Shown piece by piece: positions 22,764 to 43,061 of a stretch of DNA of 64,000 nt. The notes under the pieces were generated by a model that was not told where the DNA came from, did no database searches, and saw only the letters and a program-made list of their open reading frames with translations. Within the stretch, counting starts at the first letter, position 1; each line of letters starts with the position of its first letter. A program made the translations under genes and the position numbers. The stretch comes from Lutibacter sp. HS1-25 (GTDB lineage Bacteria > Bacteroidota > Bacteroidia > Flavobacteriales > Flavobacteriaceae): NCBI RefSeq assembly GCF_004121075.1, contig NZ_RHLN01000161.1:62001-126000 (forward strand). The letters are read 5' to 3'.

Positions 22764-25700
22764 ATGAAAAAAGCAAAAATTCTTTATTTACTAATTATAT
22801 TTCCTATGATACTTTTTGCACAAAGCAAAGAAATCAAAGGAACTGTAGTAGATGAAAACAATAACCTGCTACCTGGCTCAAGTATTGTAGTTAAGGGAAC
22901 AACTATTGGGACTTCTGCAGATTTTGATGGAAATTTTACTCTTGTAATACCCGAAAAAGCAACGACATTAATAGTTTCTTATCTAGGTTATATACCTCTA
23001 GAAGTTAAAATAACTAATGAAACTATATATAAAATTCAATTAGCTTCTGATAGAAATACTTTAGAAGAAGTTGTAGTTGTAGGATATGGAACATTGCAAC
23101 GAAAAGACATTACAGGGTCTGTTTCAAAAATTAAAGAAACAACTGAAATTGCAGGACAATACACTTCGGCAAGTGCTATGTTACAGGGAAGAAGCGCCGG
23201 TGTTCAGGTATTAAATAATACTGGGTCGCCTAATGCCCCTGCAAGTGTTAGAATTAGAGGAACAAATAGTTTAAGAGGAAATAATGAACCATTATATGTT
23301 ATAGATGGTGTTATTATAAGTTCTGCTGGTGAAGATGTTATAAATGCCACAAACGATGCCAATGAAGTTCAACAAACTCAAAATGGTTTAACAGGTTTAA
23401 ACATGAGAGATGTTGAAAGTATGGAAATATTAAAAGATGCTTCAGCCACTGCCATTTATGGATCAAGAGGTGCTAATGGGGTTGTGCTTATTACTACAAA
23501 AAAAGGGAAAGAAGGAAAAGCCGTTTTCAATATTTATAATTCTGCAACTATTTCACAGGTTTCTAATAAAATTTCCGTTTTAGATCCCGTAAATTATGCA
23601 CAATACAGAAATCAATCAGCATTAATAAATGGCAATTCTGTTAATTATCAAATAGACGGTAAAAATGTTTATTTAATACAAAATGGTGTTCCTAACGAAA
23701 CTCCGTTGCGTCAAATAAACTGGCAGGATGATATTTACAAATTAGGTTATTCTATGAATGCTGGTTTAAATTTAAGCGGAGCATCAGACAAATCAAATTA
23801 TTATTTTTCAGGCGATTATAATCAACTTGAAGGAAACGTTCCAAATACATTTTTACATAATGCAAATGTTAGATTGAATTACACAACTAATGTTTCTGAC
23901 AAAGTAAAAATAGACACTCGTGTTGGTTTTTATTTAAGTAGAGGGAATATGAATCAAGGCGCAAGCAGATCGGGTGGTCAAAGAAGTTTCACACGTCAGT
24001 TAGTAAGTTATAATCCTTTGATTGATGGCGAATTAGCTGATGAAGAAATTGGAGGAACCAATCCTTTTACTTTTCTAGAAGGGTTTGAAGAAAAAATTAA
24101 AGAAAAGAGACTTAATGCTTCCTTAGATTTAACATATAATATTACTGAAGGGTTAAAATATGTATTTAGAGCTGGTACAAATTACTGGAACAAATATCGT
24201 TCTCGCTGGTATGGTCCTGAAACATTTAAAGGTGCACAAACAAATGGAGATCTTTCCTTATCAACCTTAGAAAAAACAGCCTATACTTTTGATAATCTAT
24301 TAATGTACAACAAAACTTTTAATAAAATACATAGATTAAATGCTACTATTGGTGTTACTTATGATGGTTCTGATGCCCACAACACGACTTACGAAGTTGG
24401 TCAGTTTCCAATTAACACCTTAGAAGACAGAGGTCCGCAATACGGAGAATTAGTTATTGCTCCATTTAGTTCTTTAGATATTAGAGATGCCATTTTATCT
24501 TATTTAGCAAGAGTAAATTATACTTTAAATAACAAATATGTGTTTAACGGTACTTTTAGGGTTGACCAATCATCAAAATTTAAAGGATCAAATAAAACTG
24601 GATTATTTCCATCATTCTCATTTGCTTGGATGGCTGCCAAAGAAAATTTCTTAAAAAACTCTAAAACAATTAATAATTTAAAAATTAGAGCAAGCTGGGG
24701 AGAAGTTGGAAATCAAGCTATTAATCCTTATCAAACATATAGTAATTATGGTCCAGAGTTGTATTCAGATGCTAATAACTCAACAATTTTAGGAGTAATT
24801 GCTTTGAATATAGGTAATGAGGACTTAACTTGGGAAACAACAACACAATTAAATTTAGGTTTAGATATTGGTCTTTTCAAAGACAGATTATCTGCATCTA
24901 TTGATGTTTACCATAAACAAACTTCGGATTTATTAATCAACTTACCTACTCCTCCTTCTGTTGGTTTTCCTTTTTATTTGACAAATCAAGGAGGACTTGA
25001 AAACAAAGGATTAGATATTAGCATTGACGGATTGATAGTTGACCATGAGAACTTTAAATTTTCATTAGGTGGAAACATTTCATTTAACAAAAATAAAGTA
25101 ACTGATTTGGGAACTTTACCTAAAGGAGATATTTGGATAGACGGAAAATTAGTCAATGAATCATTTTATTTAGGAAATGGTGTTTCTACGGGTAATAATT
25201 TTAAATCTCCAGCAAATATTTTTATTGAAGGACAACCTGTTGGACTTTTCTGGGGTTTTGAAACTGATGGTATATATACCAGTGATGCAGAAGCGGCACA
25301 AGGACCTTCTTATCAGGGAGCTGCAAATTTAGCTGGAGATGTAAGATTTGTTGACAAAAATGGAGATGGTAACGTAAATGATGAAGATAAAACAAACATT
25401 GGAAATCCTAATGCTGATTTTGTTTATGGTATCAATGCAAATCTTGATTTTAAAAACTTTAATATTTCTATGTTATTTAATGGATCTCAGGGAAATGATA
25501 TTTTGAATGGAAATTTATTGGAAGAAAATGTTGCTGCAGGAAACAGTAATAATATTCGTCCAGAAGCGTATTTTGACGCTTGGTCTACTGAAAACCCAAC
25601 AGGTGCTTATCCAAGAATTGGTTCTTTAACTTCAACTACTGTACCAACCGACAGACTTGTTGAAGATGGAAGTTATTTTAGACTAAGCAACATAACAGTT

Positions 25701-25907
25701 GGCTATAATATAGATTTAGATGAACAAAAATTTATTGATAATGCCAGAATTTATATTGCTGGAAACAATTTATTTACCATTACAAATTATAGTGGATATG
25801 ACCCTGAAATAACCAGCTTTTTATATGACGGAACAATTATAGGTGTTGACTGGTTAAGTACTCCAAATGTATCTAGTGTATTATTAGGTGTTAATATTAA
25901 ATTTTAA
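22764..25907 (+). CDS. SusC-like TonB-dependent outer-membrane transporter
   Basis: This is the oligosaccharide importer of the PUL. A signal peptide ends at about residue 20 (LFAQ). Then come a carboxypeptidase-D-like domain (about 22-100), the connecting motif EEVVVVGYG, a plug domain with the IRGTNS and YVIDGV segments, and a 22-strand beta-barrel ending in an aromatic C-terminus (GVNIKF). The 1047-residue length is normal. It is followed 12 bases later by the SusD partner, the hallmark pair of a Bacteroidetes PUL, and leads the run of genes up to 49226. Confidence 0.95.
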   Translation: MKKAKILYLLIIFPMILFAQSKEIKGTVVDENNNLLPGSSIVVKGTTIGTSADFDGNFTLVIPEKATTLIVSYLGYIPLEVKITNETIYKIQLASDRNTLEEVVVVGYGTLQRKDITGSVSKIKETTEIAGQYTSASAMLQGRSAGVQVLNNTGSPNAPASVRIRGTNSLRGNNEPLYVIDGVIISSAGEDVINATNDANEVQQTQNGLTGLNMRDVESMEILKDASATAIYGSRGANGVVLITTKKGKEGKAVFNIYNSATISQVSNKISVLDPVNYAQYRNQSALINGNSVNYQIDGKNVYLIQNGVPNETPLRQINWQDDIYKLGYSMNAGLNLSGASDKSNYYFSGDYNQLEGNVPNTFLHNANVRLNYTTNVSDKVKIDTRVGFYLSRGNMNQGASRSGGQRSFTRQLVSYNPLIDGELADEEIGGTNPFTFLEGFEEKIKEKRLNASLDLTYNITEGLKYVFRAGTNYWNKYRSRWYGPETFKGAQTNGDLSLSTLEKTAYTFDNLLMYNKTFNKIHRLNATIGVTYDGSDAHNTTYEVGQFPINTLEDRGPQYGELVIAPFSSLDIRDAILSYLARVNYTLNNKYVFNGTFRVDQSSKFKGSNKTGLFPSFSFAWMAAKENFLKNSKTINNLKIRASWGEVGNQAINPYQTYSNYGPELYSDANNSTILGVIALNIGNEDLTWETTTQLNLGLDIGLFKDRLSASIDVYHKQTSDLLINLPTPPSVGFPFYLTNQGGLENKGLDISIDGLIVDHENFKFSLGGNISFNKNKVTDLGTLPKGDIWIDGKLVNESFYLGNGVSTGNNFKSPANIFIEGQPVGLFWGFETDGIYTSDAEAAQGPSYQGAANLAGDVRFVDKNGDGNVNDEDKTNIGNPNADFVYGINANLDFKNFNISMLFNGSQGNDILNGNLLEENVAAGNSNNIRPEAYFDAWSTENPTGAYPRIGSLTSTTVPTDRLVEDGSYFRLSNITVGYNIDLDEQKFIDNARIYIAGNNLFTITNYSGYDPEITSFLYDGTIIGVDWLSTPNVSSVLLGVNIKF

Positions 25908-25919
25908 AGGAAACAAATT

Positions 25920-27437
25920 ATGAAAACATTATATAAATTTTTGATATTGACTATTATAAGTTCAATTTCATTTGTAGGGTGCGATTTAGAGGAAACCCCT
26001 CCATTTTTAGCATCTGACAATATTTACACAACGGTAGAAGGTGCAAATGTGGCGCTTAATGGTGCTTATGGAAAATTGACCAATCACTTTTTCTATGCAG
26101 CAGATTACCACCATTTGACAGATTTTACAAGCGGATTTTTTACTTCAGGAAAAGCTTCTGACACAAAAGATATTGCAGCATTAAACCCATCTTCTTCTCA
26201 GAATTATGTAGAAAATTTATGGGCATTAAGTTATAGTACCATTGCAGTTACTAATGATATTATTACCAATATTTCTGAAACGAATGAAAATCCTCAAATA
26301 AGAAACGTACTAGGACAAGCCTATTTTTTAAGAGCTCACGTATATTTTAATTTAGTACGTTTATATGGAGCCGTTCCATTAAGAGTGGAAGCATCAACAG
26401 CTGATAATTTACATATGGCAAGAACTCCTGTTGATGAGGTTTACAATCAAATAATTGCTGACGCCAATAAAGCTAAAACCTTACTTTTTGATAAGTCAAC
26501 TCAAACCATAGGCAGACCTTCAAATTTAGCACCAAATATGATTTTAGCTAAAGTGTATATGACTTTGGCAGGAAATAACGATAATAGCCCATACTGGCAA
26601 CTTGCTTATAACGAAGCCATTCAAATGTATGGAAAATATAGTCTGGTAGGCAATTATGGAGATTTATGGAATAGCGAGAGTACTGCAAATAACAACAGTG
26701 AATCTATTTTTGAAATTCAGTTTAATGAGGAAGTACCTTCAAAATTGGTAAGACTTTTCACTCATTCCAATGCTTATTCAGGTGTAGGATGGCAACGTAT
26801 TAAACCAAACCCTGAAACTATTGATGACCATATGGCAAGATACCCAGGTGATCCAAGAATAGATTTAACTTTTATATCTTCTTATATTCAAGTTAATGGT
26901 TCTACATCTAAAGTGTATCCAACAAATACTTCAAGATCAAATACAAATAATGCCTACCCATTTATTTACAAATATTGGACAAAGGATCTCACAGCGACTA
27001 CTGATGCAACCAATTTCAATTATGTTCATTTTAGATATGCCGATTTATTATTAATGCTGGCTGAAATTGAAAATGAATTAAATGGTCCTGCAAACGCATA
27101 CAAATATGTGAATGAAGTTTTAGCAAGAGCAAGAAATACAGGAAACTCTGTACAACCTGCCGATTGGTCTGGCCTAAGCCAAGAAGAATTTAGAAGTGCC
27201 ATTATGAAAGAGTATCAATTTGAATTACTTGCAGAAGGACAAGATTGGTTTAACAACCGAAGAAGAGGATATGATTATTTTAAACAAAATATCATAGACC
27301 CTCACAATGCAAGAAATGAAAAAGCTTTTGACATTGTGTATCCTGACAATAACAAAACAATGTTAATGCCAATTCCAGGTTCTGAAATAAATGCAAATCA
27401 GCAAATTTCAGCTGCTGATCAAAACCCTGGGTACTAA
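25920..27437 (+). CDS. SusD/RagB-like glycan-binding lipoprotein
   Basis: This is the surface lipoprotein that caps the SusC barrel and binds glycan. The lipobox ends at Cys21 (SFVGC). The SusD fold is recognised from the RNVLGQAYFLRAHVYFNLVRLYG helix region and the ARYADLLLMLAE-type segment (HFRYADLLLMLAEIENEL), with the C-terminal block QFELLAEGQDWFNNRRRG. The 505-residue length is typical. No glycan specificity can be read from it. Confidence 0.95.
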   Translation: MKTLYKFLILTIISSISFVGCDLEETPPFLASDNIYTTVEGANVALNGAYGKLTNHFFYAADYHHLTDFTSGFFTSGKASDTKDIAALNPSSSQNYVENLWALSYSTIAVTNDIITNISETNENPQIRNVLGQAYFLRAHVYFNLVRLYGAVPLRVEASTADNLHMARTPVDEVYNQIIADANKAKTLLFDKSTQTIGRPSNLAPNMILAKVYMTLAGNNDNSPYWQLAYNEAIQMYGKYSLVGNYGDLWNSESTANNNSESIFEIQFNEEVPSKLVRLFTHSNAYSGVGWQRIKPNPETIDDHMARYPGDPRIDLTFISSYIQVNGSTSKVYPTNTSRSNTNNAYPFIYKYWTKDLTATTDATNFNYVHFRYADLLLMLAEIENELNGPANAYKYVNEVLARARNTGNSVQPADWSGLSQEEFRSAIMKEYQFELLAEGQDWFNNRRRGYDYFKQNIIDPHNARNEKAFDIVYPDNNKTMLMPIPGSEINANQQISAADQNPGY

Positions 27438-27455: not shown

Positions 27456-29066
27456 ATGGATATAAAAAATATTAAATGGATAAAAGTTGTTTTTACATTC
27501 TTAATCATAGGAAACTTGTTTTCTTGTGTGGAAGATGCAGACAACTATAAAGATAACCCATATATACTTAACAGTGATATTGGATTGCAATACGAAAATA
27601 TGAGTACCTACTCATATCAAGAACTATTGAAAAGTGAAAAACCAAGTTTTAATATCGATAAATCTCAATATGCCTTCTCTCTTTTAACAATTAAAAAAGG
27701 AGGTGCCACAATAACAACTGGTGTTTCTATATTTACAATTGATCCTGCAACTGGAGTTGTAACCATTGATAATAAAAATGCAGGTTTAACTCCTGGTGAA
27801 ATATATAGCTTTGATATTGGTATTGGTAATGTAAATGGTATTATTAGAAATAATGACGCTTTCAGTTTAGAAATTTATGATACACCATTAAATTATACTA
27901 TCAGCAATTCAACTTATGATGCCAAATATCTTGAAGTTGCAGATATTGCAACTGTAACTTATGTTGACACTTCAGAAAATGGAGATGTACTGTCAGATAT
28001 TACTTATAGTCTAAGTAACCCTCCTGCTGGTTTTTCAATTAATAGTACAACAGGTGTAATTTCAAAAAACACAGATGCAACATCTGGTGTTCATGATATT
28101 TCTGTGACTATCAATTCAAATATAGGTCCTAAAACCTTTTCAAATGTTTTAAAAGTTACTGTAGGAGATGCTCCATCACTAACCTATGTGAAAGCTGACA
28201 ATACAACTCCCTTAACAAATGTTGTTTTATCTCCCTGGACAGCTTATGCATCTTCAGCACCTCAAATGGTTGGCATGAATGCAGTTTCTTATGAAATAAT
28301 ATTACCAGAAACACTTACTGCTGGATCTGTAATTGCGAATAATGATGGTACTATAACTGTATTAGTAGACCAAAACTTACCAATAGGTACACATTCTTTA
28401 GGTGTTATTGCTACAAATATAGCTGGCATTAGTGCTTCATTTGACAATATTTTTACCTTAACTGTAGAAACACGTTGGGAAACAACCGATTTATTTAATG
28501 ATACTTTTGACGATGATTTAACTGGTCCAATAGATCCAGGAAATACTCTATATCCTGATTTTGCAGGATATACATTAGGAACTATTAATAGCTGGAATAA
28601 AGCTATTATTGAAAAAGCAGGATCTCCTACTATTCAGGGTGTCAGAGTTCAAAACCCAGGAACTGACCATCATTATTTAGTGCGCACAGTTGATATAACT
28701 GGCGTTAAAGCCATGAAAATTTCATTTGGAGAACAATGGGGGTATAATGATAAATTTGCTACAGAGACTTATCAAAGAGCTTTGTATGCAGGTGAGTCAA
28801 CTTCCGATTTAGAAAGTGGTTCGTTTAATCCTGCGAGTTGGACAGAGATAATGGGTAAAACAGATACTCGCTGGCCAGGCTCAAGTACGTGGTCTTCAAG
28901 AATACCAAATCCAATTGATAATATTGCTGTTGATTTAAGCGCTATTTCTGGTAACACTTTAAAATTAGCATGGTATATTGGTGGAGATACTGCTCAAAAT
29001 GGTCAATATGCGATCGACTACTGCAACGCACAAGTTTCAGTAGCTTTTACAGCTGAAGAACAATAA
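27456..29066 (+). CDS. putative surface glycan-binding lipoprotein
   Basis: A 536-residue lipoprotein (lipobox ending at Cys24, LFSC). After a short linker come two or three cadherin- or Ig-like beta domains (about residues 45-340) with repeated ITTGVSIFTIDPATGVV and FSINSTTGVIS patterns. A C-terminal beta-sandwich domain (about 345-536) begins ETTDLFNDTFDDDL. Its position directly after SusCD and its domain layout are those of SusE/SusF-type surface glycan-binding proteins, although sequence similarity is not informative. A hairpin terminator follows it. Confidence 0.75.
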   Translation: MDIKNIKWIKVVFTFLIIGNLFSCVEDADNYKDNPYILNSDIGLQYENMSTYSYQELLKSEKPSFNIDKSQYAFSLLTIKKGGATITTGVSIFTIDPATGVVTIDNKNAGLTPGEIYSFDIGIGNVNGIIRNNDAFSLEIYDTPLNYTISNSTYDAKYLEVADIATVTYVDTSENGDVLSDITYSLSNPPAGFSINSTTGVISKNTDATSGVHDISVTINSNIGPKTFSNVLKVTVGDAPSLTYVKADNTTPLTNVVLSPWTAYASSAPQMVGMNAVSYEIILPETLTAGSVIANNDGTITVLVDQNLPIGTHSLGVIATNIAGISASFDNIFTLTVETRWETTDLFNDTFDDDLTGPIDPGNTLYPDFAGYTLGTINSWNKAIIEKAGSPTIQGVRVQNPGTDHHYLVRTVDITGVKAMKISFGEQWGYNDKFATETYQRALYAGESTSDLESGSFNPASWTEIMGKTDTRWPGSSTWSSRIPNPIDNIAVDLSAISGNTLKLAWYIGGDTAQNGQYAIDYCNAQVSVAFTAEEQ

Positions 29067-29148: not shown

Positions 29149-31755
29149 ATGAAACAGCTAATTTGTTTACTGATTGTTGTAACAAGTGTCTTTCAAATTC
29201 AATCACAAAATACAACAAAACCCAATATTTTGTTTATTGCTATTGATGATTTAAAACCAACTTTAGCTTGTTATGGGGATACATATGCAATTACCCCAAA
29301 TATTAATAAAATAACAGAAAATGCAGCTGTTTTTCTAAACAACCATACGCAACAAGCTGTATGTGGCCCTTCAAGAGCTAGTTTAATGACAGGAAAACGC
29401 CCGGACTATACAAAGGTTAGAGACTTAAAAACCAAGATGCGCGATATCAATCCGGATATATTAACCATTCCTCAATACTTTAAAGAAAATGGTTACATTA
29501 CCGCAGGAACTGGAAAAATATACGATCCAAGATGTGTAGATGAATTTAGAGATAAACCATCATGGTCTATTCCATATATTTCAGAAAATGATATTCCATA
29601 TCCTGCTGAATATGGAAAACCAGTTAGTGGTTATTATCAGAATGCTGAAATCAAAAAAAAATATGCTGAACTTGAAGAGAAAGCCAAAAATGAAGGCATT
29701 AAAAACCTTAGAAGTTACGTTATTAATAATTATAAACCTCCCTTTGAAATTAGCGATGTACCAGATGAAGCTTATACTGATGGCGCAATTGCTGCACATG
29801 CATTAAAATTATTAGATGATGTTACAAATTCAGATAAACCATTTTTTTTAGCAGTTGGTTTTAAAAGACCCCATTTACCCTTTGTTGCTTCAAAAAAATA
29901 TTGGGATTTATACAACAGAGATGAATTCCAACTGGCCCCCTATCAAAAAAAAGCCAAAAACGGGACAGATCTAGCTTATCATAATTCTGGTGAATTATGT
30001 AGCTATAAAGATCCATCCATTGAATATATCATTAATAAAGAAGACTTATTAGCATTAGATGATGATGTGCAAAGAACGTTAATTCATGGCTATTATGCCT
30101 GTACCAGTTTTGTAGATGTTCAAGTTGGTAAAATTATAGAAAAACTTAAAGAAAAAGGCTTAGACAAAAATACAATTATTGTAGTTTGGGGTGACCATGG
30201 CTGGCATTTGGGAGATCACAGTTTATGGAATAAGCATACCAATTTAGAACAAGCTACACGCTCACCATTTATTGTATATTCACCATTTATTAACAAACCA
30301 GTTGAGATTACTTCTCCAACCGAGTTTTTAGATATTTTCCCAACATTATGTGAAATGTCAAACTTAGCTATTCCTGAAAATTTAGATGGAAAAAGTTTGT
30401 TGCCACTACTTAATGGTGATGAAAAAAAAGTAAAAGATTTTGCCGTTAGCCAACAACCGAGAGGTAAAATAACTGGCTATAGCTTTAGATCAGAAAAATA
30501 CAGATATACTGTTTGGCTTAAGGACGACAAAAAAAGTACCGATAAAATTACTTCAAATGATATTGTAGCCGAAGAGCTTTATGATTATATTAAAGATCCT
30601 TTAGAAACCGTAAATCATTTTGGAGAAGCTAAATACAAGGCAGTTCAGTCAGAGTTAATTGCATTTTCAGAAGCATTTTTTAAAGATGAATATAAGAAGA
30701 ATTCAGAAAAAAAAACGCTCATAAAAACATCGGCATCAAAAAGTATTAAAGAACTAGTAAAAGAAAACTATCCTTCAAATAATGTTATTATTGGTGCTAC
30801 CTTAGGTGATAAAGAATTGGGTACAAATGTTGAAAAATTATTCTTAAAGGACTTCAATTACAGTACTTCACGAAATTTTGCAAAACAAACATACATTCAT
30901 CCTGAGCCTGATGTTTGGAGATGGGATAAAATTGATGAGTTTATTGCCTTTGGAAAAAAAAATAATATCGATTTACGATTTCACTCACCTATAAGTCCAC
31001 AAGCTTCAAAATGGGCAATGACTGATTCTAGAACAGCCAAAGAATTAGAAAAAAACATGACCGAATTTATGACTGCCTTATGCAAAAAAATAAACAATGT
31101 TGCCACTATAAAATGGATGGATGTGGTAAACGAAACTGTTGAACGAAATGGAGAGTGGTTTAAAGATAAACCTGGTGTGAAAGAATGGGAAAATCCATGG
31201 GTGAAAATTGGATATAACAAAGATAGCATTCCATTATATATTTTAAAAGCCTTTGAAATTTCAAATAAATATGCTCCAAATATTAGTCAGGTTTATAACC
31301 AACATGGAGGTATGGAACCTGTGATGTGGGAGAAGGTGAAAAAAACAATTTTATACCTAAAGGATAAAGGCTACAAAATTGACGGTCTAGGTTGGCAGGG
31401 ACATTTAAAAGAAAATTCAAGAGTCGTTGATGATCCTAAAAACTTAAAATACCTATCTGAATTAATTGATTGGGCTCATGCAAATAATCTTGATTTTCAT
31501 ATCACCGAATTTGATTATCACTTAAAACCAGGTGAAAACACTCCTGAGAACTATCTAAAACAAGCCGACGCCTACACAAAAATACTCGCTGTGTTATTAG
31601 AAAAAAGCAAAACGGGTCTCGTAACTTTTAACACTTGGGGAATTACAGATTTAGATGACGGAAAAAATACACACAGATTTATTTATGATGAAAATTTGAA
31701 GCCAAAACCTGCCTATTTTGCCATAAAAGATGAATTAATAAAATGTAAAGAATAA
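29149..31755 (+). CDS. S1 sulfatase fused to divergent GH10 domain
   Basis: A single 868-residue exported protein with two catalytic domains. Residues 1-19 form a signal peptide. Residues about 25-510 are a type I sulfatase of the iduronate-2-sulfatase-like kind, with formylglycine site Cys72 in CGPSR, an IDD metal-binding start and the DHGWHLGDH metal motif. After a short Lys/Ser-rich linker, residues about 530-868 form a GH10-like barrel with acid/base Glu662 (DVVNET) and nucleophile Glu787 (ITEFDYH). The usual GH10 HTLVWH block is replaced by HSPISPQ, so the subsite architecture differs from classic xylanases. The protein probably removes sulfate from, and cuts, the same beta-1,4-linked chain. 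Confidence 0.88.
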   Translation: MKQLICLLIVVTSVFQIQSQNTTKPNILFIAIDDLKPTLACYGDTYAITPNINKITENAAVFLNNHTQQAVCGPSRASLMTGKRPDYTKVRDLKTKMRDINPDILTIPQYFKENGYITAGTGKIYDPRCVDEFRDKPSWSIPYISENDIPYPAEYGKPVSGYYQNAEIKKKYAELEEKAKNEGIKNLRSYVINNYKPPFEISDVPDEAYTDGAIAAHALKLLDDVTNSDKPFFLAVGFKRPHLPFVASKKYWDLYNRDEFQLAPYQKKAKNGTDLAYHNSGELCSYKDPSIEYIINKEDLLALDDDVQRTLIHGYYACTSFVDVQVGKIIEKLKEKGLDKNTIIVVWGDHGWHLGDHSLWNKHTNLEQATRSPFIVYSPFINKPVEITSPTEFLDIFPTLCEMSNLAIPENLDGKSLLPLLNGDEKKVKDFAVSQQPRGKITGYSFRSEKYRYTVWLKDDKKSTDKITSNDIVAEELYDYIKDPLETVNHFGEAKYKAVQSELIAFSEAFFKDEYKKNSEKKTLIKTSASKSIKELVKENYPSNNVIIGATLGDKELGTNVEKLFLKDFNYSTSRNFAKQTYIHPEPDVWRWDKIDEFIAFGKKNNIDLRFHSPISPQASKWAMTDSRTAKELEKNMTEFMTALCKKINNVATIKWMDVVNETVERNGEWFKDKPGVKEWENPWVKIGYNKDSIPLYILKAFEISNKYAPNISQVYNQHGGMEPVMWEKVKKTILYLKDKGYKIDGLGWQGHLKENSRVVDDPKNLKYLSELIDWAHANNLDFHITEFDYHLKPGENTPENYLKQADAYTKILAVLLEKSKTGLVTFNTWGITDLDDGKNTHRFIYDENLKPKPAYFAIKDELIKCKE

Positions 31756-31777: not shown

Positions 31778-34144
31778 ATGAAAATTAAAAAACACACACT
31801 AATCTATTTGGGTTTACTTTTCATTACGTTAGCCGCTTGCAATCAAAAAAAAGAAACTTCAACTTCAAATAGCGATGCTCTCTACTTGGATGCTTCTCAA
31901 TCTGTTGAAAAAAGAGTAGCCGATCTAATGGAAAGAATGACTTTGGAAGAAAAGGTCTATCAAATGAATCAATTCGTTGGTTTAGATCATATGAGAAAAG
32001 CTGAAAAAGATTTAACGGTAGAAGAATTACATAGTAATGATGCACAAGGGTTTTATAAAGGTTTATTTAGTGATGATGTAGCGCAAATGTGCGCAGAGGG
32101 TAAAATTGGTTCTTTTTTACATGTATTAACAGCTGAGGAAGCCAATCTTTTGCAAGAACTTACCTTAAAATCCAGATTAAAAATACCAGTATTAATTGGT
32201 ATAGATGCTATTCACGGAAATGCATTAGTTTCAGGAACTACTGTCTACCCATCACCAATAACATTGGCAGCAACTTGGAATGATGACTTTTCATACTTAG
32301 TAGGGAAACAAACAGCTAAAGAAATGCGTGCCACAGGAAGCCACTGGGCATTTTCACCAAATATTGACGTTTTAAGGGACCCTCGCTGGGGAAGAGTTGG
32401 AGAAACTTTTGGAGAAGATCCATATATGGTTGGAAATATGGGAGCAGCTATGATAAATGGTTTTCAGCAAAATGATTTTACAGGTTTTGATAAAGTAATT
32501 GCCTGTGCAAAACATATGATTGCAGGTAGTGAACCAGCTAATGGATTAAATGCCTCACCTATGGATGTATCACTTAGAACATTAAAGGAAGTTTACTTAC
32601 CTCCATATAAAAAAGCAATTGACGCAGGGGTTTATTCTATTATGGCAGCCCACAATGAACTTAACGGTATTCCTTGCCATATGAATAAATGGTTAATGAC
32701 AGATGTTTTTAGAAATGAATGGGGATTTAAAGGTTTCTATGTTAGTGACTGGATGGACATTGAACGTATTGAAACAGTACATCATGTCGCTCATGATTTA
32801 AAAGAAGCTTCTTATCTGTCGGTTGATGCGGGTATGGACATGCATATGCACGGGGTTGATTTTCCTGAAGCAATAATTGAATTAGTAAAAGAAGGAACGC
32901 TTCCTATTGAAAGAGTAGATGATGCCTGTTCAAAAATCCTGACAGCTAAATTTAAGCTTGGCTTATTTGAAAACCGTTTTGTTGATTTGAATAAGATTAG
33001 TGAATCTGTTAATATTGATGAACATCAACAAGTAGCCCTAGAATCTGCCAGAAAAGGACTTGTTTTACTAAAAAATAACGGAATTCTTCCCCTAAAAGAA
33101 ACAACTTCAAAAAAGAAAATATTGGTTACTGGTCCTAATGCAAATAATCAAGCCATTTTGGGAGATTGGCACGCAAAACAACCAGATGATAATGTAACAA
33201 CAGTTTATGAGGGAATCAAAAATGTTGGAAATTCAAAAGGTTACGATGTTAGTTTTTTTGATTCAGGCGAAAGCACTAGACGAATTGAAGATGGAATCAT
33301 TCCTCAAGCAATAGAGAAAGCTAAAAAAGTAGATTATGTAATTTTAGTTGTTGGCGATAATTCACAACGTTACAACTGGAAAGAAAAAACTGCAGGTGAA
33401 AACATGGGACGAGCATCATTAGATTTGCCTGGAGACCAGTTAGAGCTTATCCAAAATATTAAAAAAACAGGAACACCTATAATTGTTGTATTGGTAAATG
33501 GCCGTCCTATATCAGAACCTTGGTTACAAGACAATATTCCTGCTATTTTGGAAGCGTGGGAGCCTGGTAATTTTGGTGGACAGGCAGTTGCTGAAGCAAT
33601 ATTTGGAGATATAAACCCTAGTGGTAAATTACCTTTGACTGTTGCACGTTCTGTTGGGCAATTACAAATGATTTACAACCACAAACCTTCTCAATATTTT
33701 CATAAATATGCTGAAGAAAAAATAACACCTCTATATCCATTTGGCTATGGTTTAAGTTATACTAAATATGTATACGGTGAGCCAACAATATCAAAAGCCT
33801 CATTAGATAAAGCTGATGAAGAAATCAAGGTGTCAGTTACTATAACAAATAATGGCGAAATGGACGGAGAAGAAATTGCTCAACTGTATATAAGGGACGA
33901 TGTGAGCAGTGCTACAAGACCTGTAAAAGAACTAAAAGGTTACCAAAGGGTATTCTTAAAAGCCGGTGAAACCAAATCTTTAGATTTCAAATTAAATGCT
34001 AAAAGCTTGGCATTTTTCGATAGAGTAATGAATTATTGTGTAGAAGCTGGAACATTTACAATTATGACTGGCCCCTCTTCTGACTCAAAAGATCTTAAAG
34101 AAATAACTCTTGAAGTTGCCAAAAGAATAAATTTAAAAAATTAA
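31778..34144 (+). CDS. GH3 beta-glycosidase, lipoprotein
   Basis: A 788-residue GH3 enzyme of the periplasmic beta-glucosidase/xylosidase type that releases sugars from oligosaccharide ends. The lipobox ends at Cys21 (TLAAC). The (beta/alpha)8 domain carries the nucleophile Asp324 in VSDWMD and the substrate motif KHMIAGS. The C-terminal alpha/beta sandwich and a fibronectin-III-like domain (about residues 690-780) complete the usual three-domain form. It lies 22 bases after the sulfatase-GH10 gene. Confidence 0.93.
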   Translation: MKIKKHTLIYLGLLFITLAACNQKKETSTSNSDALYLDASQSVEKRVADLMERMTLEEKVYQMNQFVGLDHMRKAEKDLTVEELHSNDAQGFYKGLFSDDVAQMCAEGKIGSFLHVLTAEEANLLQELTLKSRLKIPVLIGIDAIHGNALVSGTTVYPSPITLAATWNDDFSYLVGKQTAKEMRATGSHWAFSPNIDVLRDPRWGRVGETFGEDPYMVGNMGAAMINGFQQNDFTGFDKVIACAKHMIAGSEPANGLNASPMDVSLRTLKEVYLPPYKKAIDAGVYSIMAAHNELNGIPCHMNKWLMTDVFRNEWGFKGFYVSDWMDIERIETVHHVAHDLKEASYLSVDAGMDMHMHGVDFPEAIIELVKEGTLPIERVDDACSKILTAKFKLGLFENRFVDLNKISESVNIDEHQQVALESARKGLVLLKNNGILPLKETTSKKKILVTGPNANNQAILGDWHAKQPDDNVTTVYEGIKNVGNSKGYDVSFFDSGESTRRIEDGIIPQAIEKAKKVDYVILVVGDNSQRYNWKEKTAGENMGRASLDLPGDQLELIQNIKKTGTPIIVVLVNGRPISEPWLQDNIPAILEAWEPGNFGGQAVAEAIFGDINPSGKLPLTVARSVGQLQMIYNHKPSQYFHKYAEEKITPLYPFGYGLSYTKYVYGEPTISKASLDKADEEIKVSVTITNNGEMDGEEIAQLYIRDDVSSATRPVKELKGYQRVFLKAGETKSLDFKLNAKSLAFFDRVMNYCVEAGTFTIMTGPSSDSKDLKEITLEVAKRINLKN

Positions 34145-34149
34145 TAATT

Positions 34150-35784
34150 ATGAAATTCATTTTTAATACATATTTAAAAGCCTTTTCTGCTATAGCTTTA
34201 ATAAGTTTTAGCTCTTGCTCTCAAAAAGAAGAAAAACCTGAAACACCTATAAAGCCAAATATTATTTATATCATGGCCGATGATTTAACAACACAAGCAA
34301 TTAGTGCTTATGGAGGAATATATAGAGATATTGCTCCCACACCTAATATTGATAAAATAGCTCAGGAAGGTATGTTATTTCAAGATGCATTATGTACAAA
34401 TGCTATTTGCGGTCCAAGTAGAGCAGCAATTTTAACTGGAAATTATAGCAATATAAACGGTTATTACAAAAATGAAAGTGGAGGGAAATTTGATAAAACG
34501 CAATGGACTTTCCCTCAAGAATTTCAAAAAAATGGTTATAGCACTAGTTTATTTGGAAAATGGCATTTAGGGACAGAACCAGTAGGATTTGACACATTTA
34601 AATATCACAATTCGGCTGGGCAACAAGGCCATTATTGGGATCCTGTATATAATGAAAATGGGGTTGATGTAAAGGAAAAAGGGTATTCAACCAATTTAAG
34701 CACCGACTTTGCATTGAATTGGTTAGAATCAAACAAATCTACCAACAAGCCATTTATGATGATATTGCAATACAAGGCACCTCATCGTCCTTGGGAACCA
34801 GACACAAAATACGAACAACTATGGGAAGATATAGAAATGCCATACCCTGCAACCTTCAATGACACCTATGAAGGTAGAGAAAAAACTGCTGGTGATACCG
34901 AAATGACAATGGAATATTTCAGTAATAGAGATATGAAATTACCAGAACCTGAAGGATTAAAAGGAAAAGAAAAAATTAAATGGGCCTTTTATGGTGCAAA
35001 ACCTGGAGAAATTGTTCAACCTAAAAACATGACTGCTGAAGAAGGAAGAAAATGGAGATACCAAACTTATATTAAGGACTATTTAGCCTGTGTGAAATCT
35101 GTTGATGATAATATTGGTAGAGTATTAAACTATTTAAAAGAAAATAATCTTGAAGAAAATACTGTAATCGTATTAACTTCTGATCAAGGTTTTTACTTAG
35201 GTGATCACGGTTTTTTTGATAAAAGATTTATTTATGAAGAATCTTTAAGAATGCCATTTATGGTAAAATATCCTAATAAAGTTAAAGCCGGAAGTGTAAG
35301 TGAAGACATTATTACGAACATAGATTTTGCGCCAACTTTATTAGAATTGGCAGGTATAAAAACGACTCAAAAAATGCAGGGAACTAGTTTTGTTCCTGTG
35401 TTAGAAGGCAAAACACCTAAAGATTGGCAAGATGGGATGTATTATCATTACTATGAGTTTCCTTTCTGGCACCACGTACAACCACATTACGGAATAAGAA
35501 CACAAAAATATACATTGGCTCACTTTTACTATAATATTGATGTTTGGGAATTATACGATTTAGAAAAGGATCCAAACCAATTGAATAATGTTTATAATGA
35601 CCCTAATTATGCCGATATTGTTGTTGAATTGAATGCTAAATTGAAAAATTTAATGGTGAAATTTGAAGATAATAAAACTCTTGAAGACTTCAGAATAATT
35701 ACTGATAAAGACTTTGGTAGCATTGTTGATAATATTAAAGATGAAGAGTCTGTTCAAGAAATTTTAACAAAAAAAGAAAATTAA
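34150..35784 (+). CDS. type I sulfatase, lipoprotein
   Basis: A 544-residue S1-family sulfatase with lipobox Cys23 and formylglycine site Cys87 in CGPSRAA. Metal ligands are visible in ADDLTT and in TSDQGFYLGDHGF. The choline-sulfatase/arylsulfatase-like C-terminal block YDLEKDPNQLNN is present. It starts five bases after the GH3 stop, so it is in the same operon. It must be activated by a formylglycine-generating enzyme encoded elsewhere. The sulfate position it attacks is unknown. Confidence 0.93.
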   Translation: MKFIFNTYLKAFSAIALISFSSCSQKEEKPETPIKPNIIYIMADDLTTQAISAYGGIYRDIAPTPNIDKIAQEGMLFQDALCTNAICGPSRAAILTGNYSNINGYYKNESGGKFDKTQWTFPQEFQKNGYSTSLFGKWHLGTEPVGFDTFKYHNSAGQQGHYWDPVYNENGVDVKEKGYSTNLSTDFALNWLESNKSTNKPFMMILQYKAPHRPWEPDTKYEQLWEDIEMPYPATFNDTYEGREKTAGDTEMTMEYFSNRDMKLPEPEGLKGKEKIKWAFYGAKPGEIVQPKNMTAEEGRKWRYQTYIKDYLACVKSVDDNIGRVLNYLKENNLEENTVIVLTSDQGFYLGDHGFFDKRFIYEESLRMPFMVKYPNKVKAGSVSEDIITNIDFAPTLLELAGIKTTQKMQGTSFVPVLEGKTPKDWQDGMYYHYYEFPFWHHVQPHYGIRTQKYTLAHFYYNIDVWELYDLEKDPNQLNNVYNDPNYADIVVELNAKLKNLMVKFEDNKTLEDFRIITDKDFGSIVDNIKDEESVQEILTKKEN

Positions 35785-35785
35785 A

Positions 35786-37360
35786 ATGATTTCAAATAAA
35801 GGTATCTGTTTACTGGCCAGTGCTCTTTTTGCAATTACAAATTGTAAATCACAACAAGCAAAAAGTACCTCAGAAGAATCCTCTCCTAAAAACATACTGT
35901 TTATTGCTGTTGATGATTTAAAACCGCTGCTGAATGCATATGGAGCACATCAAATGCATACCCCTAATTTTGATAGATTAGCAGAAATGGGTGTTATTTT
36001 TGAAAATGCTGAAGTACAACAAGCCGTTTGTGGGCCATCACGAGCAAGTATTATGACCGCAATGTATCCTGACCATACAAAAGTTTGGGACTTACAAACC
36101 AATTTCAGAGAATCTGCACCCGATTTAATATCAATGCCCGAATATTTAATAACTCAAGGTTATGAAACGACAGGAACAGGCAAAATTTATCATCAAGGTT
36201 CTACCTCTGAAGGACATGATGCAAAAAGCTGGAGTATTCCATACGTTTCACCCGATTATTATGATCCAAAATATGGCGAACCAGCATTTGGCGCTTATCA
36301 AAACCCTGAAACAAAGGAAAAATATAAAACACTTGAAAAAGAAGCCTTAGATAAAGGGATCAAAAAAGAAGGTCAACAGCGCGCCTACGCTTTAAAAAAA
36401 TTACGCCCAAGTACTGAATCTGCAGATGTTTCTGATGAAGCTTATAATGCTGGTTTGTATACCATTCAAACCTTAAAAAATTTAGAAACACTTCAAAAAA
36501 CAGGTAAACCCTTCTTTTTGGCTGTTGGTTATCAAAAACCTCATTTACCGTTTGTAGCTCCAAAAAAATATTGGGATTTATACAAACGAGAAGATATTAA
36601 GCTTGCTGAATTTCAGGAATTGTCTGAAGGTACTCCAGATATTGCTTATCACTCTTTTGGAGAATTAAGGGCCTATACGGATATTGATAATAATTTAAAA
36701 GTTGGTGAAAAACTACCTGAAGCCAAGCAACGTGAATTAACACACGGTTATATGGCCTGCGTTTCATTTATTGATGCTCAATTGGGTGTATTATTAGATA
36801 CTTTTGAAGAAAAAGACTTATTAGATAATACCATCATTGTTCTTTGGGGAGATCACGGTTACCACTTAGGTGATCATACTGAATGGAATAAGCATTCAAA
36901 TTTTGAACAGGCAACTAGAACAGTTTTAATGTTCGCAGGCCCTGGAATTTCAAAAAATAGAAAAGTTGAAAACCCTGTAGAATTGGTAGATATTTTCCCT
37001 ACTTTATTTGAATTGGCTGGAGTAAAAACGCCTAAAGTAGATGGTAAATCATTGGTTCCTTTAATGGATAATGATGAAAAATCAACCATAGATGTCGATT
37101 TTGCAGTTAGTCAATACAGAAGACATAAGGAAAAAATGGGTTATTCGTTGCGCACAAATCGTTATCGTTACACAGAATGGTTTGATGAAGGCTACAGATC
37201 TTATAAACCCTATGATGAAGGTGTTGTTATTGCCCGAGAATTGTATGATTACGAAGTAGACCCATTGGAATCAAAAAATTTAGTAAATGAAGCAGAATAC
37301 GCTTCTATAGTTATTGAATTAAAGAGCAAATTAAAAAAACATCTTCAAAAATATAATTGA
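35786..37360 (+). CDS. type I sulfatase, iduronate-2-sulfatase-like
   Basis: A 524-residue S1 sulfatase lipoprotein (lipobox Cys20, AITNC) with formylglycine site Cys82 in CGPSRAS. It is a close paralogue of the sulfatase half of the GH10 fusion: both share DDLKP, QQAVCGPSRAS, the GTGKIY motif, SWSIPY and KKYWDLY blocks in the same order. Metal-site residues occur in WGDHGYHLGDH. It starts one base after the preceding sulfatase stop. Confidence 0.93.
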   Translation: MISNKGICLLASALFAITNCKSQQAKSTSEESSPKNILFIAVDDLKPLLNAYGAHQMHTPNFDRLAEMGVIFENAEVQQAVCGPSRASIMTAMYPDHTKVWDLQTNFRESAPDLISMPEYLITQGYETTGTGKIYHQGSTSEGHDAKSWSIPYVSPDYYDPKYGEPAFGAYQNPETKEKYKTLEKEALDKGIKKEGQQRAYALKKLRPSTESADVSDEAYNAGLYTIQTLKNLETLQKTGKPFFLAVGYQKPHLPFVAPKKYWDLYKREDIKLAEFQELSEGTPDIAYHSFGELRAYTDIDNNLKVGEKLPEAKQRELTHGYMACVSFIDAQLGVLLDTFEEKDLLDNTIIVLWGDHGYHLGDHTEWNKHSNFEQATRTVLMFAGPGISKNRKVENPVELVDIFPTLFELAGVKTPKVDGKSLVPLMDNDEKSTIDVDFAVSQYRRHKEKMGYSLRTNRYRYTEWFDEGYRSYKPYDEGVVIARELYDYEVDPLESKNLVNEAEYASIVIELKSKLKKHLQKYN

Positions 37361-37376
37361 CTTTAAAATTTAAATT

Positions 37377-38798
37377 ATGAAAAAAATATTTATAATCTTT
37401 TTGTTTGTTGGATTATTTTCTAGCAATGCACAAAATAAAAGTAAACAACCAAATGTTATTTTCTTTTTAGTAGATGATTTTGGATGGATGGATACTGGTT
37501 ATCAAGGAAGTTCTTTTTATGAAACACCAAATATTGACAAATTAGCACATGAAAGTATGCGTTTCAATCAAGCGTATGCAGCCCATCCGCGGTGCGTCCC
37601 ATCACGTTTTGCCATGATTACAGGAAAATATCCTGCCAGAGAAGGTATGCCTGGAAAAGGTGGAAGAGATGCTGGCAATTTACAAAAATCAGAATTTGGG
37701 ATTGCTAAAGCCTTCAAAGAAAAAGGTTATACCACATTTTTTACTGGTAAATGGCATTTGGCTTCAAATGAGGTATATCCTGAAGATGAAGGGTTTGATT
37801 ATAATTTTGGTGGCGGTCATGCGGGTGCTCCAAAAAGCTATTTTTACCCATATAATGTTGCCAAAGGGAACAGTGGAAATGGAAAAGAAAGAAATATTGA
37901 AAATTTAGATGACGCCAAAGAAGGTGATTATTTAACCGATCATTTGACTCGTAAAACATTAGATTTTATAAAAGAAAATAAAGACAAACCATTCTTTATT
38001 TATTTATCTCATTATGGAGTACATACTCCTTTTGAAGGAAAAGATAAACTTGAAAAATATTATCAAGAAAAACTAAAAGAAAATCCTGTTCCAGATGGTC
38101 CCCAATATGCAACAGTTGGCAACACTGGTGAGACTAAAATATATCAAGACAATGCAACTTATGCTGCTATGATTCAAAGTGTTGATGAAAGTTTAGCTAA
38201 AATAGTAGCATTGTTGAAAGATCTGAACCTAGACGAAAATACCATTATTGTTTTCACTTCAGACCACGGAGGATTGTCAAACAGAGGTAATAAAAGACAA
38301 TTAGCCACCTCAAACCTTCCGCTCAGAGCTGGAAAAGGGCATAATTACGAAGGAGGTATTCGCGTACCAATGTTCGTAAAATGGCCTGGTGTTACTCAAG
38401 AAAATTCAACAACTGATGCTATAGTTACTGGAACAGATTATTACCCAACATTGGTAGATATGGCAAATTTAAATCCTCACCCAGAACAATATTTAGATGG
38501 CGTGAGTTTTGCGGAAGTTTTAAAAGGAACTAACACAAAAGATAATGAAAGAACTGTTTTTTGGCATTCACCATTACCAAGACCTACCAGCACAGGCGAT
38601 ACTGCAAATACAACAGTAAGAAAAGGAGATTTTAAACTTTTGGATTTTTATGAAGATGGTTATGTTGAATTGTACAATATTGCCAAAGATCCTGGTGAAA
38701 CAAAAAATCTGGCAGCATCAATGCCTGAAAAAACAAAAGAACTTACAAAACTGATACAAGATTGGAGAAAAGAAGTAAATGCTGTTATAAAACATTAA
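37377..38798 (+). CDS. type I sulfatase, arylsulfatase A-like
   Basis: A 473-residue exported S1 sulfatase with a signal peptide ending near residue 19 (SSNAQ). The formylglycine site is Cys73 in CVPSRFA. The metal-binding segments LVDDFGWMD and SDHGGLSNRG are typical of the arylsulfatase A/S1_16-like groups, clearly different from the iduronate-2-sulfatase-like members of this locus. It lies 16 bases after the preceding sulfatase. Confidence 0.92.
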   Translation: MKKIFIIFLFVGLFSSNAQNKSKQPNVIFFLVDDFGWMDTGYQGSSFYETPNIDKLAHESMRFNQAYAAHPRCVPSRFAMITGKYPAREGMPGKGGRDAGNLQKSEFGIAKAFKEKGYTTFFTGKWHLASNEVYPEDEGFDYNFGGGHAGAPKSYFYPYNVAKGNSGNGKERNIENLDDAKEGDYLTDHLTRKTLDFIKENKDKPFFIYLSHYGVHTPFEGKDKLEKYYQEKLKENPVPDGPQYATVGNTGETKIYQDNATYAAMIQSVDESLAKIVALLKDLNLDENTIIVFTSDHGGLSNRGNKRQLATSNLPLRAGKGHNYEGGIRVPMFVKWPGVTQENSTTDAIVTGTDYYPTLVDMANLNPHPEQYLDGVSFAEVLKGTNTKDNERTVFWHSPLPRPTSTGDTANTTVRKGDFKLLDFYEDGYVELYNIAKDPGETKNLAASMPEKTKELTKLIQDWRKEVNAVIKH

Positions 38799-38925: not shown

Positions 38926-39918
38926 ATGAAAATATTATTTCTATTTGCCCTATCAATATTTCATCTTTTAGCTTTTAGCCATAATGAAAATGGTGTTTCC
39001 ACAGGCTCACAAAATGAAATTCCTATGGTACAATCTACTGCTACATATAATGTAATCTTAAAGGAAGATATCATATATGCTGAGGGACTGAGCCATGAGA
39101 GTGTCAATAGTTCTAATGCCACTATAATACCATTAAAGTTGGATATTTATGTTCCAGATAATGATTTGAAAAACAGACCTGCTTATATGTTTATCCATGG
39201 CGGAGGTTTTGCTGGAGGATCAAAACAACAAGCTCAGATTAAAAATTTAGCTAAATATTACACTTCAAGAGGCTGGGTATTTATCTCTATTGATTATAGA
39301 TTAAAAAATAATAATGGTACAGTACCACAACTATGGGAAAATTACTCAACTAAAGTTCCTAAAGACAAAGTTAGTCAGTTCTTATCAATATATCCTGCTA
39401 TACGCGATGCAAAGGCAGCATTAAGATATATTGTTGCCAACGCCCATACTTATAGCATCAACACAAACTATATAACAGTGGGCGGTGGTTCTGCAGGAGC
39501 AATCACTGCGATAACTCTTGGAATCTCAAATCAAGAAGATTTTAGAGATGAAATAGATACCAGCCAAGATCCAACCCTTGCTAGTACAAATTTGGAGCAA
39601 TCATATCAAATAAGAACTATAATAGACCTCTGGGGGTCAAAAATTGCATTAAATGCACTTGAGGAAATTTTAGGATATCATCGATTTGATACTAATGACC
39701 CTTCATTGTTTATTGCACATGGAACTGAAGACACAGTAGTACCTTACAGTAATGCTGAAGAATTAAAATCTATTTATAAAACCAACGGAGTGCCTTTTGC
39801 CTATTATGCCTTAGAGGGAAAAAAGCATGGTGCTTGGGATGCAACAGTAAACAATAAGAAATTGGAAGAATTGGCTTTTGATTTTATTGTTCAACAACAA
39901 AATTTAATAGTAAAATAA
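38926..39918 (+). CDS. alpha/beta-hydrolase carbohydrate esterase
   Basis: A 330-residue exported serine hydrolase of the BD-FAE/acetyl-esterase type, expected to remove acyl groups from the glycan. A signal peptide covers about residues 1-18. The oxyanion motif HGGGF (residues 91-95), the nucleophile Ser189 in GGGSAG, the Asp of HGTEDTVVP and the His of KKHGAWD form a full active site. A paralogue with a nonsense mutation lies two genes downstream, so this may be the only working esterase of the locus. Confidence 0.87.
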   Translation: MKILFLFALSIFHLLAFSHNENGVSTGSQNEIPMVQSTATYNVILKEDIIYAEGLSHESVNSSNATIIPLKLDIYVPDNDLKNRPAYMFIHGGGFAGGSKQQAQIKNLAKYYTSRGWVFISIDYRLKNNNGTVPQLWENYSTKVPKDKVSQFLSIYPAIRDAKAALRYIVANAHTYSINTNYITVGGGSAGAITAITLGISNQEDFRDEIDTSQDPTLASTNLEQSYQIRTIIDLWGSKIALNALEEILGYHRFDTNDPSLFIAHGTEDTVVPYSNAEELKSIYKTNGVPFAYYALEGKKHGAWDATVNNKKLEELAFDFIVQQQNLIVK

Positions 39919-39953: not shown

Positions 39954-41624
39954 ATGATTTACGTAAAAAACATACTTTTTATAATTTCGCTGGTTTTAGT
40001 TGTAAATACATCTAATTCACAAAACCACATCAATTCAATTAAACCAAATATTGTTTGGATTGTTTGCGAAGATATAAGTCCAACATTATCTATGTATGGT
40101 GACTTTACGGCTAAAACGCCAAATCTTGATAAACTTGCAGGTGAATCAATTGTTTATGACAACGCTTTTGCACCTGTAGGTGTTTGTGCGCCTACTAGAT
40201 CTTCAATAATTACAGGAATGTATCCAATAAGTATTGGCACTATGAATATGCGCACAGGGAAAGATATTCAATCCTGGGGTGTTAGGAAATATGAAAATAA
40301 AATTCAAATTACAGATATTGAAGGAGATACCATTCGACAATATTCTGCAGTGGTTCCTTCAAACGTAAAATGTTTTACAGAGTATTTAAGAGCTGATGGC
40401 TATTATTGCACGAACAATCAAAAAACCGATTACCAATTTGCTGCACCAATAACGGCCTGGGATGAAAATAACTCAAAAGCTCATTGGAGAAATACGCCTA
40501 AAGGGATGCCATTTTTTTCAGTTTTTAATTTTGGTTCTACACATGAAAGTAAAATTTGGTTACAAAAAAAACCACTAACAGTAAATCCAGAAACTGTACC
40601 TGTACCCCCTTATTTTCAAGATACAGAAATAGCTCGTAACGATATTGCTCGTCATTACAGCAATGTTGAAATAATGGACGCTGAAGTTGGTCAACTTATT
40701 CAGCAATTAAAGGAAGATGGCTTGTATGAAAATACGATTATATTTTTTTATAGTGATCACGGTGGCCCATTACCAAGACAAAAAAGAGCCATTTTAGACT
40801 CAGGTCTTAAAGTTCCTTTTATGGTGAAAAATATTGGAAGTTCAGATATTGGTAGAACGGACAGATTGATTTCTTTTACCGATTTGGCTCCAACTGTTTT
40901 AAGTTTAGCGGGTATTCAACCTCCAAATTATATGGATGGGTCAGCTTTTCTAGGTAAATACATTGCAAAACCGAGAGATTATGTTTTTGGAAGTTCTGAT
41001 AGATTTGATGAAAGTTCAGACAGAATTCGCTCAGTAAGAAATAAACAATATTTATACTTAAAAAATTATTTTCCTAAAAAAACTAAATACAAGGATATTA
41101 GCTACAGAAAAAACATTCCAATGATGAATGAGCTCTTAGATTTGAAAGAACAAAATAAATTAAATGAAATACAACTTGACTGGTTCAATACAAAAACTAC
41201 AGAAGAATTGTATGATTGCGAAAAGGATCCTTATAATTTAATAAATTTAGCTGAAAATCCTGATTATCATAAAGTGTTGATTGATTTAAGAAATGTAAAT
41301 GATGAACACTTTAAAAATTTTCCGGATTTAGGAATGATTCCCGAGGCACAATTAATTAATAGGATGTGGCCAAATTTTGAACAACCACAAACTGATATTG
41401 TTACACTACTACAAGAAGAAGAAACCATTTATCTTTCAACAACAACAGAAGGAGCTTCAATTGCTTATATTTTAAGTGACAATCCTAATTTGGAATTAGA
41501 TTATAACAGTCATTGGAAATTGTATTCAACTCCAATAAAAGCCGAAAAAAACATGTATATCTATACCATTGCTGAAAGAATTGGTTTTAAAGAAAGTGAC
41601 ATTGTTATGCATCAAATAAAATAA
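39954..41624 (+). CDS. type I sulfatase with C-terminal beta domain
   Basis: A 556-residue exported S1 sulfatase (signal peptide about residues 1-22). The active site reads CAPTR with Cys78, so Thr replaces the usual Ser of CxPSR; this variant occurs in some S1 subfamilies. Metal-site residues are in CEDISP and YSDHGGPLPRQKR. After the sulfatase fold, about residues 480-556 look like the small CHB_HEX_C beta domain seen at the end of some glycoside hydrolases (TTTEGASIAYILSD). Follows the esterase gene by 35 bases. Confidence 0.9.
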   Translation: MIYVKNILFIISLVLVVNTSNSQNHINSIKPNIVWIVCEDISPTLSMYGDFTAKTPNLDKLAGESIVYDNAFAPVGVCAPTRSSIITGMYPISIGTMNMRTGKDIQSWGVRKYENKIQITDIEGDTIRQYSAVVPSNVKCFTEYLRADGYYCTNNQKTDYQFAAPITAWDENNSKAHWRNTPKGMPFFSVFNFGSTHESKIWLQKKPLTVNPETVPVPPYFQDTEIARNDIARHYSNVEIMDAEVGQLIQQLKEDGLYENTIIFFYSDHGGPLPRQKRAILDSGLKVPFMVKNIGSSDIGRTDRLISFTDLAPTVLSLAGIQPPNYMDGSAFLGKYIAKPRDYVFGSSDRFDESSDRIRSVRNKQYLYLKNYFPKKTKYKDISYRKNIPMMNELLDLKEQNKLNEIQLDWFNTKTTEELYDCEKDPYNLINLAENPDYHKVLIDLRNVNDEHFKNFPDLGMIPEAQLINRMWPNFEQPQTDIVTLLQEEETIYLSTTTEGASIAYILSDNPNLELDYNSHWKLYSTPIKAEKNMYIYTIAERIGFKESDIVMHQIK

Positions 41625-43051: not shown

Positions 43052-43061
43052 AAACTCCTCT

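Follow-up and report, generated by a model that had tools for sequence, protein, structure and literature searches.

Loci with sulfatase domain-containing GH10 proteins have been described from North Sea Bacteroidetes (Formosa, Aurantivirga and Polaribacter), and in the part of that paper available to us they are predicted to serve in the use of sulfated xylan or xylose-rich substrates (Kruger et al., 2019; PMC6794258). The same source, as far as the available part goes, names sulfated xylans and xylose-rich chains as predicted nutrients for the bacteria that succeed algal blooms. Both the architecture and the locus type are in print (PMC6794258 and PMC6298971, available parts), and a sulfatase–GH10 fusion is a kind of protein already described in outline, and not new to print. 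In the open-licence PMC literature we found no characterised enzyme of this locus type. The fusion ties two suspected activities to one gene, which can be expressed whole or in halves.

Two proteins of ulvan degradation provide further points of comparison. P36, a GH78|S1_25 hybrid of the Formosa agariphila ulvan locus, has been assayed, and its sulfatase and GH78 act in consecutive steps (PMC8511951, available part). The protein considered here resembles it in joining an S1 sulfatase to a glycoside hydrolase in a marine flavobacterium, although here the steps are proposed only; P36 carries an alpha-L-rhamnosidase of GH78, which works on ulvan oligosaccharides, whereas our hydrolase belongs to GH10, and the Pfam scan found no GH78 domain in our protein. 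The other is P18_S1_7 (structure 6hhm), which takes the 2-sulfate off xylose in ulvan (PMC9096561, available part). It is the nearest solved relative of our sulfatase half by both sequence and fold, but is free-standing where ours is fused, and the two are 35% identical. In the accessible parts of the two papers, P18_S1_7 is called endo (PMC9096561) and S1_7 is called exolytic (PMC8360166).

The locus and the fusion protein

The window (the whole stretch of 64,000 nucleotides analysed, from Lutibacter sp. HS1-25) contains the features listed in Table 1. The fusion gene is preceded by genes for SusC-like, SusD-like and third proteins, and is followed by those for a GH3 enzyme, four sulfatases, esterases, a GH5 enzyme, a fifth sulfatase and a regulator. 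Judged against the published description of the North Sea loci and not against their sequences, the window is like them in having sulfatase and GH10 in one protein, a GH3 enzyme and at least two further sulfatases, and unlike them in adding GH5 and esterases and in having five separate sulfatases (PMC6794258, available part).

Table 1. Features of the window, in order of position
Feature	Position	Strand	Basis
SusC-like transporter	22764..25907	+	sequence appearance
SusD-like protein	25920..27437	+	sequence appearance
Protein after SusD	27456..29066	+	Pfam: no family over cut-off
Sulfatase + GH10 fusion gene	29149..31755	+	ORF, Pfam, predicted structure
Probable N-terminal signal, residues 1-20	29149..29208	+	sequence; model helix 2-19
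S1 sulfatase domain, residues 25-508	29221..30672	+	Pfam; 6hhm is nearest solved structure
Formylglycine motif C72-G-P-S-R	29362..29376	+	sequence, alignment
Linker: end of long helix (494-524), low-confidence loop 522-529, start of short helix (533-540)	30673..30765	+	model
GH10 domain, residues 540-861	30766..31731	+	Pfam, structure match
R575 (E or A in other rows)	30871..30873	+	alignment
HSPISPQ, residues 612-618, branch mark H-[GSA]-P-x-[SG]-P-Q	30982..31002	+	alignment
E662, acid/base Glu	31132..31134	+	alignment
E787, nucleophile Glu	31507..31509	+	alignment
GH3; beta-xylosidases 7zb3 and 8c7f are nearest solved enzymes	31778..34144	+	Pfam, sequence match
S1 sulfatase	34150..35784	+	Pfam
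S1 sulfatase, free paralogue, own clade	35786..37360	+	Pfam, trees
S1 sulfatase	37377..38798	+	Pfam
Esterase-like alpha/beta hydrolase (BD-FAE)	38926..39918	+	Pfam
S1 sulfatase	39954..41624	+	Pfam
GH5 + CBM_4_9 + T9SS tail	43020..44972	+	Pfam; endoglucanases are nearest solved relatives
Sulfatase	47769..49226	+	6hhm is best solved match, 301 bits
Hybrid two-component regulator	49289..53554	+	sequence appearance

A single frame of 868 aa runs from the ATG at 29149 to the stop at 31755, without internal stops. In it Pfam places Sulfatase at residues 25-402 (140.1 bits, cut-off 25), SGSH_C at 355-503 (42.8 bits, cut-off 29.3) and Glyco_hydro_10 at 540-861 (136.4 bits, cut-off 22.1). The sequence-only reading of this DNA had claimed one frame holding an S1 sulfatase, with Cys72 in CGPSR, and a GH10-like barrel with Glu residues at 662 and 787; Pfam, alignment and model all bear this out, the GH10 score lying above its cut-off and both Glu residues being in place by alignment. 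These two, in the GH10 family the acid/base (E662) and the nucleophile (E787), align with Glu in all 37 rows of the GH10 branch discussed below and in 10/10 comparison rows, and N576, K579, H612, Q618, W622, N661, Q750, H752 and W830 are likewise kept in 37/37 branch rows. The motifs CxPSR, DHG and W-x-KH were found in all 15 fused sulfatase halves read (the CGPSR of L049 from its N-terminus; the half in L045 is cut). Three PF03781 (FGE) matches over the cut-off in the window's own genome are candidate FGEs by family match.

From the appearance of its N-terminus the fusion protein is probably exported; the Pfam scan of its 868 aa found no Por_Secre_tail (T9SS tail). A crude lipobox pattern was present in 2/14 fused and 6/21 free rows (L045, L049 and L067 being dropped), too slight a difference for us to claim separate export routes for the two forms.

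AlphaFold2, run on 19 aligned proteins from the window and the other loci, gave a model of the fusion with pLDDT 83.1 and pTM 0.60, the latter value leaving the orientation of the two halves unsettled. When this model was searched in 'pdb' and 'pdb_via', residues 23-518 matched the sulfatase 6hhm (Z 39.9, rmsd 2.6, 441 residues) and residues 528-868 matched GH10 xylanases (Z 34.8-37.9 among the matches listed), with Thermotoga petrophila xylanase 10B at Z 37.9 and rmsd 2.5 over 313 residues, so that a sulfatase fold and a GH10 barrel, the two parts foreseen from the letters, were both recovered. By sequence, 6hhm is the best solved match of the sulfatase half and of the sulfatases at 35786 and 47769 alike; the sugar addressed by the sulfatase half is uncertain, because the identity to 6hhm is 35% and an iduronate-2-sulfatase is the next-nearest solved protein. 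The GH3 neighbour matches the beta-xylosidase 7zb3 with 503 bits. At 41664-42524 lies an esterase gene with an in-frame stop; a relative in L070 has a single uninterrupted frame of 280 aa, so the 198-aa ORF at 41928 is the rear part of this gene.

Distribution and history of the fusion

The whole fusion, with the same domain order and in one frame, is present at 14 other loci on different contigs (825-1022 aa), as the sequence-only reading had led one to look for, and a 15th locus, L045, truncated by the contig start, opens with the end of a sulfatase. That an assembly or frame error has joined two neighbouring genes is thereby refuted, the loci being independent, and we give it a negligible chance, even though a two-gene form does exist: in L110, a locus from outside the family, a branch GH10 gene is immediately preceded on the same strand by a related sulfatase gene, which ends 8 bases before the GH10 start. 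In the GH10-half search of 397 Flavobacteriaceae genomes, 62 matched at 1e-10 and 23 had a close relative (at least 50% identity), which in nine of the 23, the window's own genome included, lay within a frame of 860-887 aa. A scan of the genome_contigs set gave 13 loci, two of them (L041 and L046, dropped) on contigs already covered by L054 and L068. Among 395 genomes across the phylum, four matched the GH10 half at 1e-40, and only that of the window's own genome was in a fusion. One fused relative, L049, comes from a Formosa MAG, and L043 has a CBM_4_9 domain between the two halves. Lutibacter agarilyticus carries three consecutive branch GH10 genes (L044:7355-12220), one fused and two free, and at L067:8962-10059, where the locus also has GH3 and several sulfatases, a branch GH10 gene is broken by a stop.

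A tree of 37 GH10 domains (16 fused and 21 free, the broken one of L067 being left out) requires seven changes between the fused and free states. A single clade of fused GH10 halves was rejected (p-AU 3e-51, for 15 fused rows, L045 then being scored as free). Close to the window, L053 (free GH10, 72% identical) and L054 (fused GH10) are sisters (98/90), and the window groups with this pair (100/99).

The sulfatase halves were compared in a first tree of 60 sulfatases, limited to those of loci already in the GH10-based set, where 14 of the 15 fused halves fell in one clade (100/98), L043 being unresolved; monophyly of all 15 was not rejected (p-AU 0.34). A search of the 397 family genomes with the sulfatase half found relatives without GH10, and the clade of 14 fused halves also contains four of them (SH-aLRT 99 in a quick tree, two on long branches). 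The idea of a sulfatase lineage that occurs only fused to GH10 is therefore wrong. L152 has a T9SS-like end. L153 is a free protein, and the stretch covered of its locus contains SusCD, GH5 and GH3 but no GH10. L144 and L151 have a tail of other sequence and read CAASR in place of CxPxR; in these two genes (L144:2968-4869 and L151:8780-10681) the tail, of about 115 aa, stands in the place of GH10, and the site is either an unusual formylglycine site or that of an inactive enzyme. Second copies in G389 (49%) and G165 (49%) were left out of the later sulfatase tree, as were six long or distant rows from the later sulfatase trees.

The fusion is old, and relatives with either half alone exist. 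The simplest account, from these trees, would be one early joining followed by loss of either half, although the halves may have been joined repeatedly. The gene pair of L110 may show what preceded the joining. In the same locus (L110:13762-15981) a 740-aa sulfatase has its own CBM_4_9 and a T9SS-like end, and there are nine sulfatase frames around the branch GH10.

It had been suggested that the fusion arose by joining GH10 to a duplicate of the free sulfatase at 35786-37360. The paralogue is indeed there, 48% identical to the sulfatase half, but the proposed origin fails: the paralogue sits in a separate clade of 13 rows (100/100), and its grouping as sister of the window's fused half was rejected (p-AU 2.4e-14). 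Both clades fall within one broader group, and a much older duplication may link them. Orthologues of the 35786 type (at least 60%) stand beside 2/16 fused and 10/21 free rows (Fisher p 0.035, for rows that are related, some sharing a locus, and with several loci cut by contig ends), which is suggestive, at most, of the fusion having replaced the 35786 type.

The GH10 branch mark and neighbouring sulfatase genes

Like ordinary GH10 endo-beta-1,4-xylanases, the window's GH10 half has the fold, both catalytic Glu residues and most of the polar active-site residues; unlike them, it shares with all 39 branch rows the replacement of the ...WH block by the branch mark and the loss of a second tryptophan. 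The mark H-[GSA]-P-x-[SG]-P-Q is present in 37/37 GH10-branch rows, fused or free alike. The tryptophan of the ordinary block is absent from 39/39 branch rows (two from outside the family) and present in 21/21 ordinary rows, and the second is absent from 39/39 and present in 20/21; many other positions are changed too. Both lost residues, we presume from xylanase 10A structures, line the glycone subsites. The branch forms one side of a split with SH-aLRT 100 (in a quick tree, with a long-branch warning for the ordinary GH10 of the window's own genome). At 39 further GH10 loci, the proteins of four lacked [VIL]WH, with other letters there and in no case the branch mark, so GH10 outside the branch can lose the block too; the mark itself is seen in this branch only, among the GH10 compared. 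R575 occurs in only 3/37 rows (the window, L053 and L054), which rules it out as a general sulfate-binding residue.

That the HTLVWH block is missing and HSPISPQ stands in its place was correctly read from the letters. The proposed tie between this loss and a sulfated chain holds in altered form: the loss accompanies loci rich in sulfatases, but as a trait of the GH10 branch, whether fused or free, and not of the fusion alone.

Sulfatase genes were counted with an HMM made from the six window sulfatases (E 1e-10), over about 10 kb on each side where contigs allowed, and the window itself was not counted. Separate sulfatase genes were found near 32 of 34 branch loci (median 2.5) and near 5 of 60 loci with other GH10, a contrast to which we attach no probability because the loci are related. 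Among the branch loci, L049, where the stretch is short, and L052, from a planctomycete, lack one; two more loci from outside the family have nine and three sulfatase frames. The controls came from 64 weaker GH10 matches, 20 in a first set and 39 in a second (five that lay within or bordered stretches already covered were omitted), together with the ordinary GH10 of the window's own genome. The clean contrast of the first set (0/21) did not survive the second (5/39), the loci with sulfatases being L114, L128, L136 and L144 (one each) and L150 (four). In genomes with both kinds of GH10, six sulfatases at the branch locus compare with none at the others read (G154 and G115) and three with one (G342), whereas in G389 the direction is opposite (three against four). 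The odds that we give to the readings below were unchanged by the larger control, since 32/34 against 5/60 still clearly separates the two kinds.

Possible activity and its alternatives

Our preferred reading, which we consider rather probable, is of a bifunctional enzyme able both to desulfate and to cut an algal chain that is sulfated and contains xylose; the substrate and the order of steps are what we infer, from the observed single frame, both folds, active-site motifs, locus content and a GH10 branch that goes with sulfatase loci. The protein would be a probably exported component of a sulfated-glycan utilization locus. Its N-terminal S1 sulfatase, with formylglycine at C72, would take off a sulfate ester, for which xylose is the most likely carrier (at 2-O, if P18_S1_7 is a guide), and the C-terminal barrel, by means of E662 and E787, would cut the neighbouring beta-xylosidic backbone, the loss of two tryptophans on the glycone side perhaps leaving room for a sulfate or side group. 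The GH3 enzyme would then complete the breakdown of the oligosaccharides, other sulfates being left to the five separate sulfatases. Joining may be advantageous in that one half makes the substrate of the other; it is not essential, because GH10 stands alone in 21 of the 37 rows and four proteins related to the sulfatase half have no GH10. The coupling of desulfation to backbone cleavage proposed in the sequence-only reading agrees with the bifunctional architecture and the active-site motifs of both halves, from which activity is predicted. Its sulfated, xylose-containing target also gains support: 6hhm is an ulvan xylose-2-sulfatase, the GH3 enzyme is nearest to a beta-xylosidase and the locus type has been assigned to sulfated xylan in print.

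The same architecture could serve on another chain, with the GH10 half cutting not a sulfated homoxylan but a sulfated heteroglycan in which xylose is combined with glucose, rhamnose or uronic acid. The two lost tryptophans could point to a chain other than plain xylan, and their absence from 39/39 branch rows, with many other positions changed, would suit a heteroglycan, as would the endoglucanases nearest to the locus GH5 and the action of the nearest solved sulfatase on ulvan. We nevertheless think it unlikely, given that N, K, H, Q, W and both Glu residues of the GH10 site are kept in 37/37 rows, that the GH3 enzyme is nearest to a beta-xylosidase, and that the locus type is assigned in print to sulfated xylan or xylose-rich substrates (PMC6794258, available part). 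The order of events is a separate matter: GH10 might accept or need the sulfate and cut first, the fused sulfatase only cleaning the products, which is compatible with the preferred reading or with a heteroglycan and differs from the former in step order only. Remodelling that is common to fused and free GH10 and goes with sulfatase loci would fit this order, as would R575, replacing E or A in the window's lineage, but this arginine is confined to 3/37 rows, and cutting first seems to us somewhat unlikely. As for the sulfatase half being a non-catalytic tether or binding module, it is true that GH10 does without it in 21/37 rows and that the GH10-less relatives L144 and L151 lack the motif proline (CAASR), but CxPSR, DHG and W-x-KH are kept in 15/15 fused halves read, which makes this very improbable.

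With less confidence than in the preferred desulfating and cutting enzyme, we tentatively suggest that the proteins with the mark H-[GSA]-P-x-[SG]-P-Q form a GH10 subfamily of their own, adapted to sulfated chains, in which a sulfated sugar could fit through the loss of two glycone-side tryptophans and the fixing of other residues (e.g. H784, three before the nucleophile), and to which a sulfatase arm was joined early, either half being shed later in several lineages. We found no description of the mark and its sulfatase context in the open-licence PMC literature, a body that misses most subscription journals. If the suggestion is true, the mark would help to separate sulfated-chain GH10s from ordinary xylanases by sequence.

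Elsewhere in the window's own genome, contigs C4, C10, C144 and C161 carry many sulfatase genes, and 56 stretches genome-wide match the fusion protein. One gene on C4 (about 118191-121715; L084:8192-11716) encodes a fusion of sulfatase and alpha-L-rhamnosidase, of 1175 aa, with the architecture of P36.
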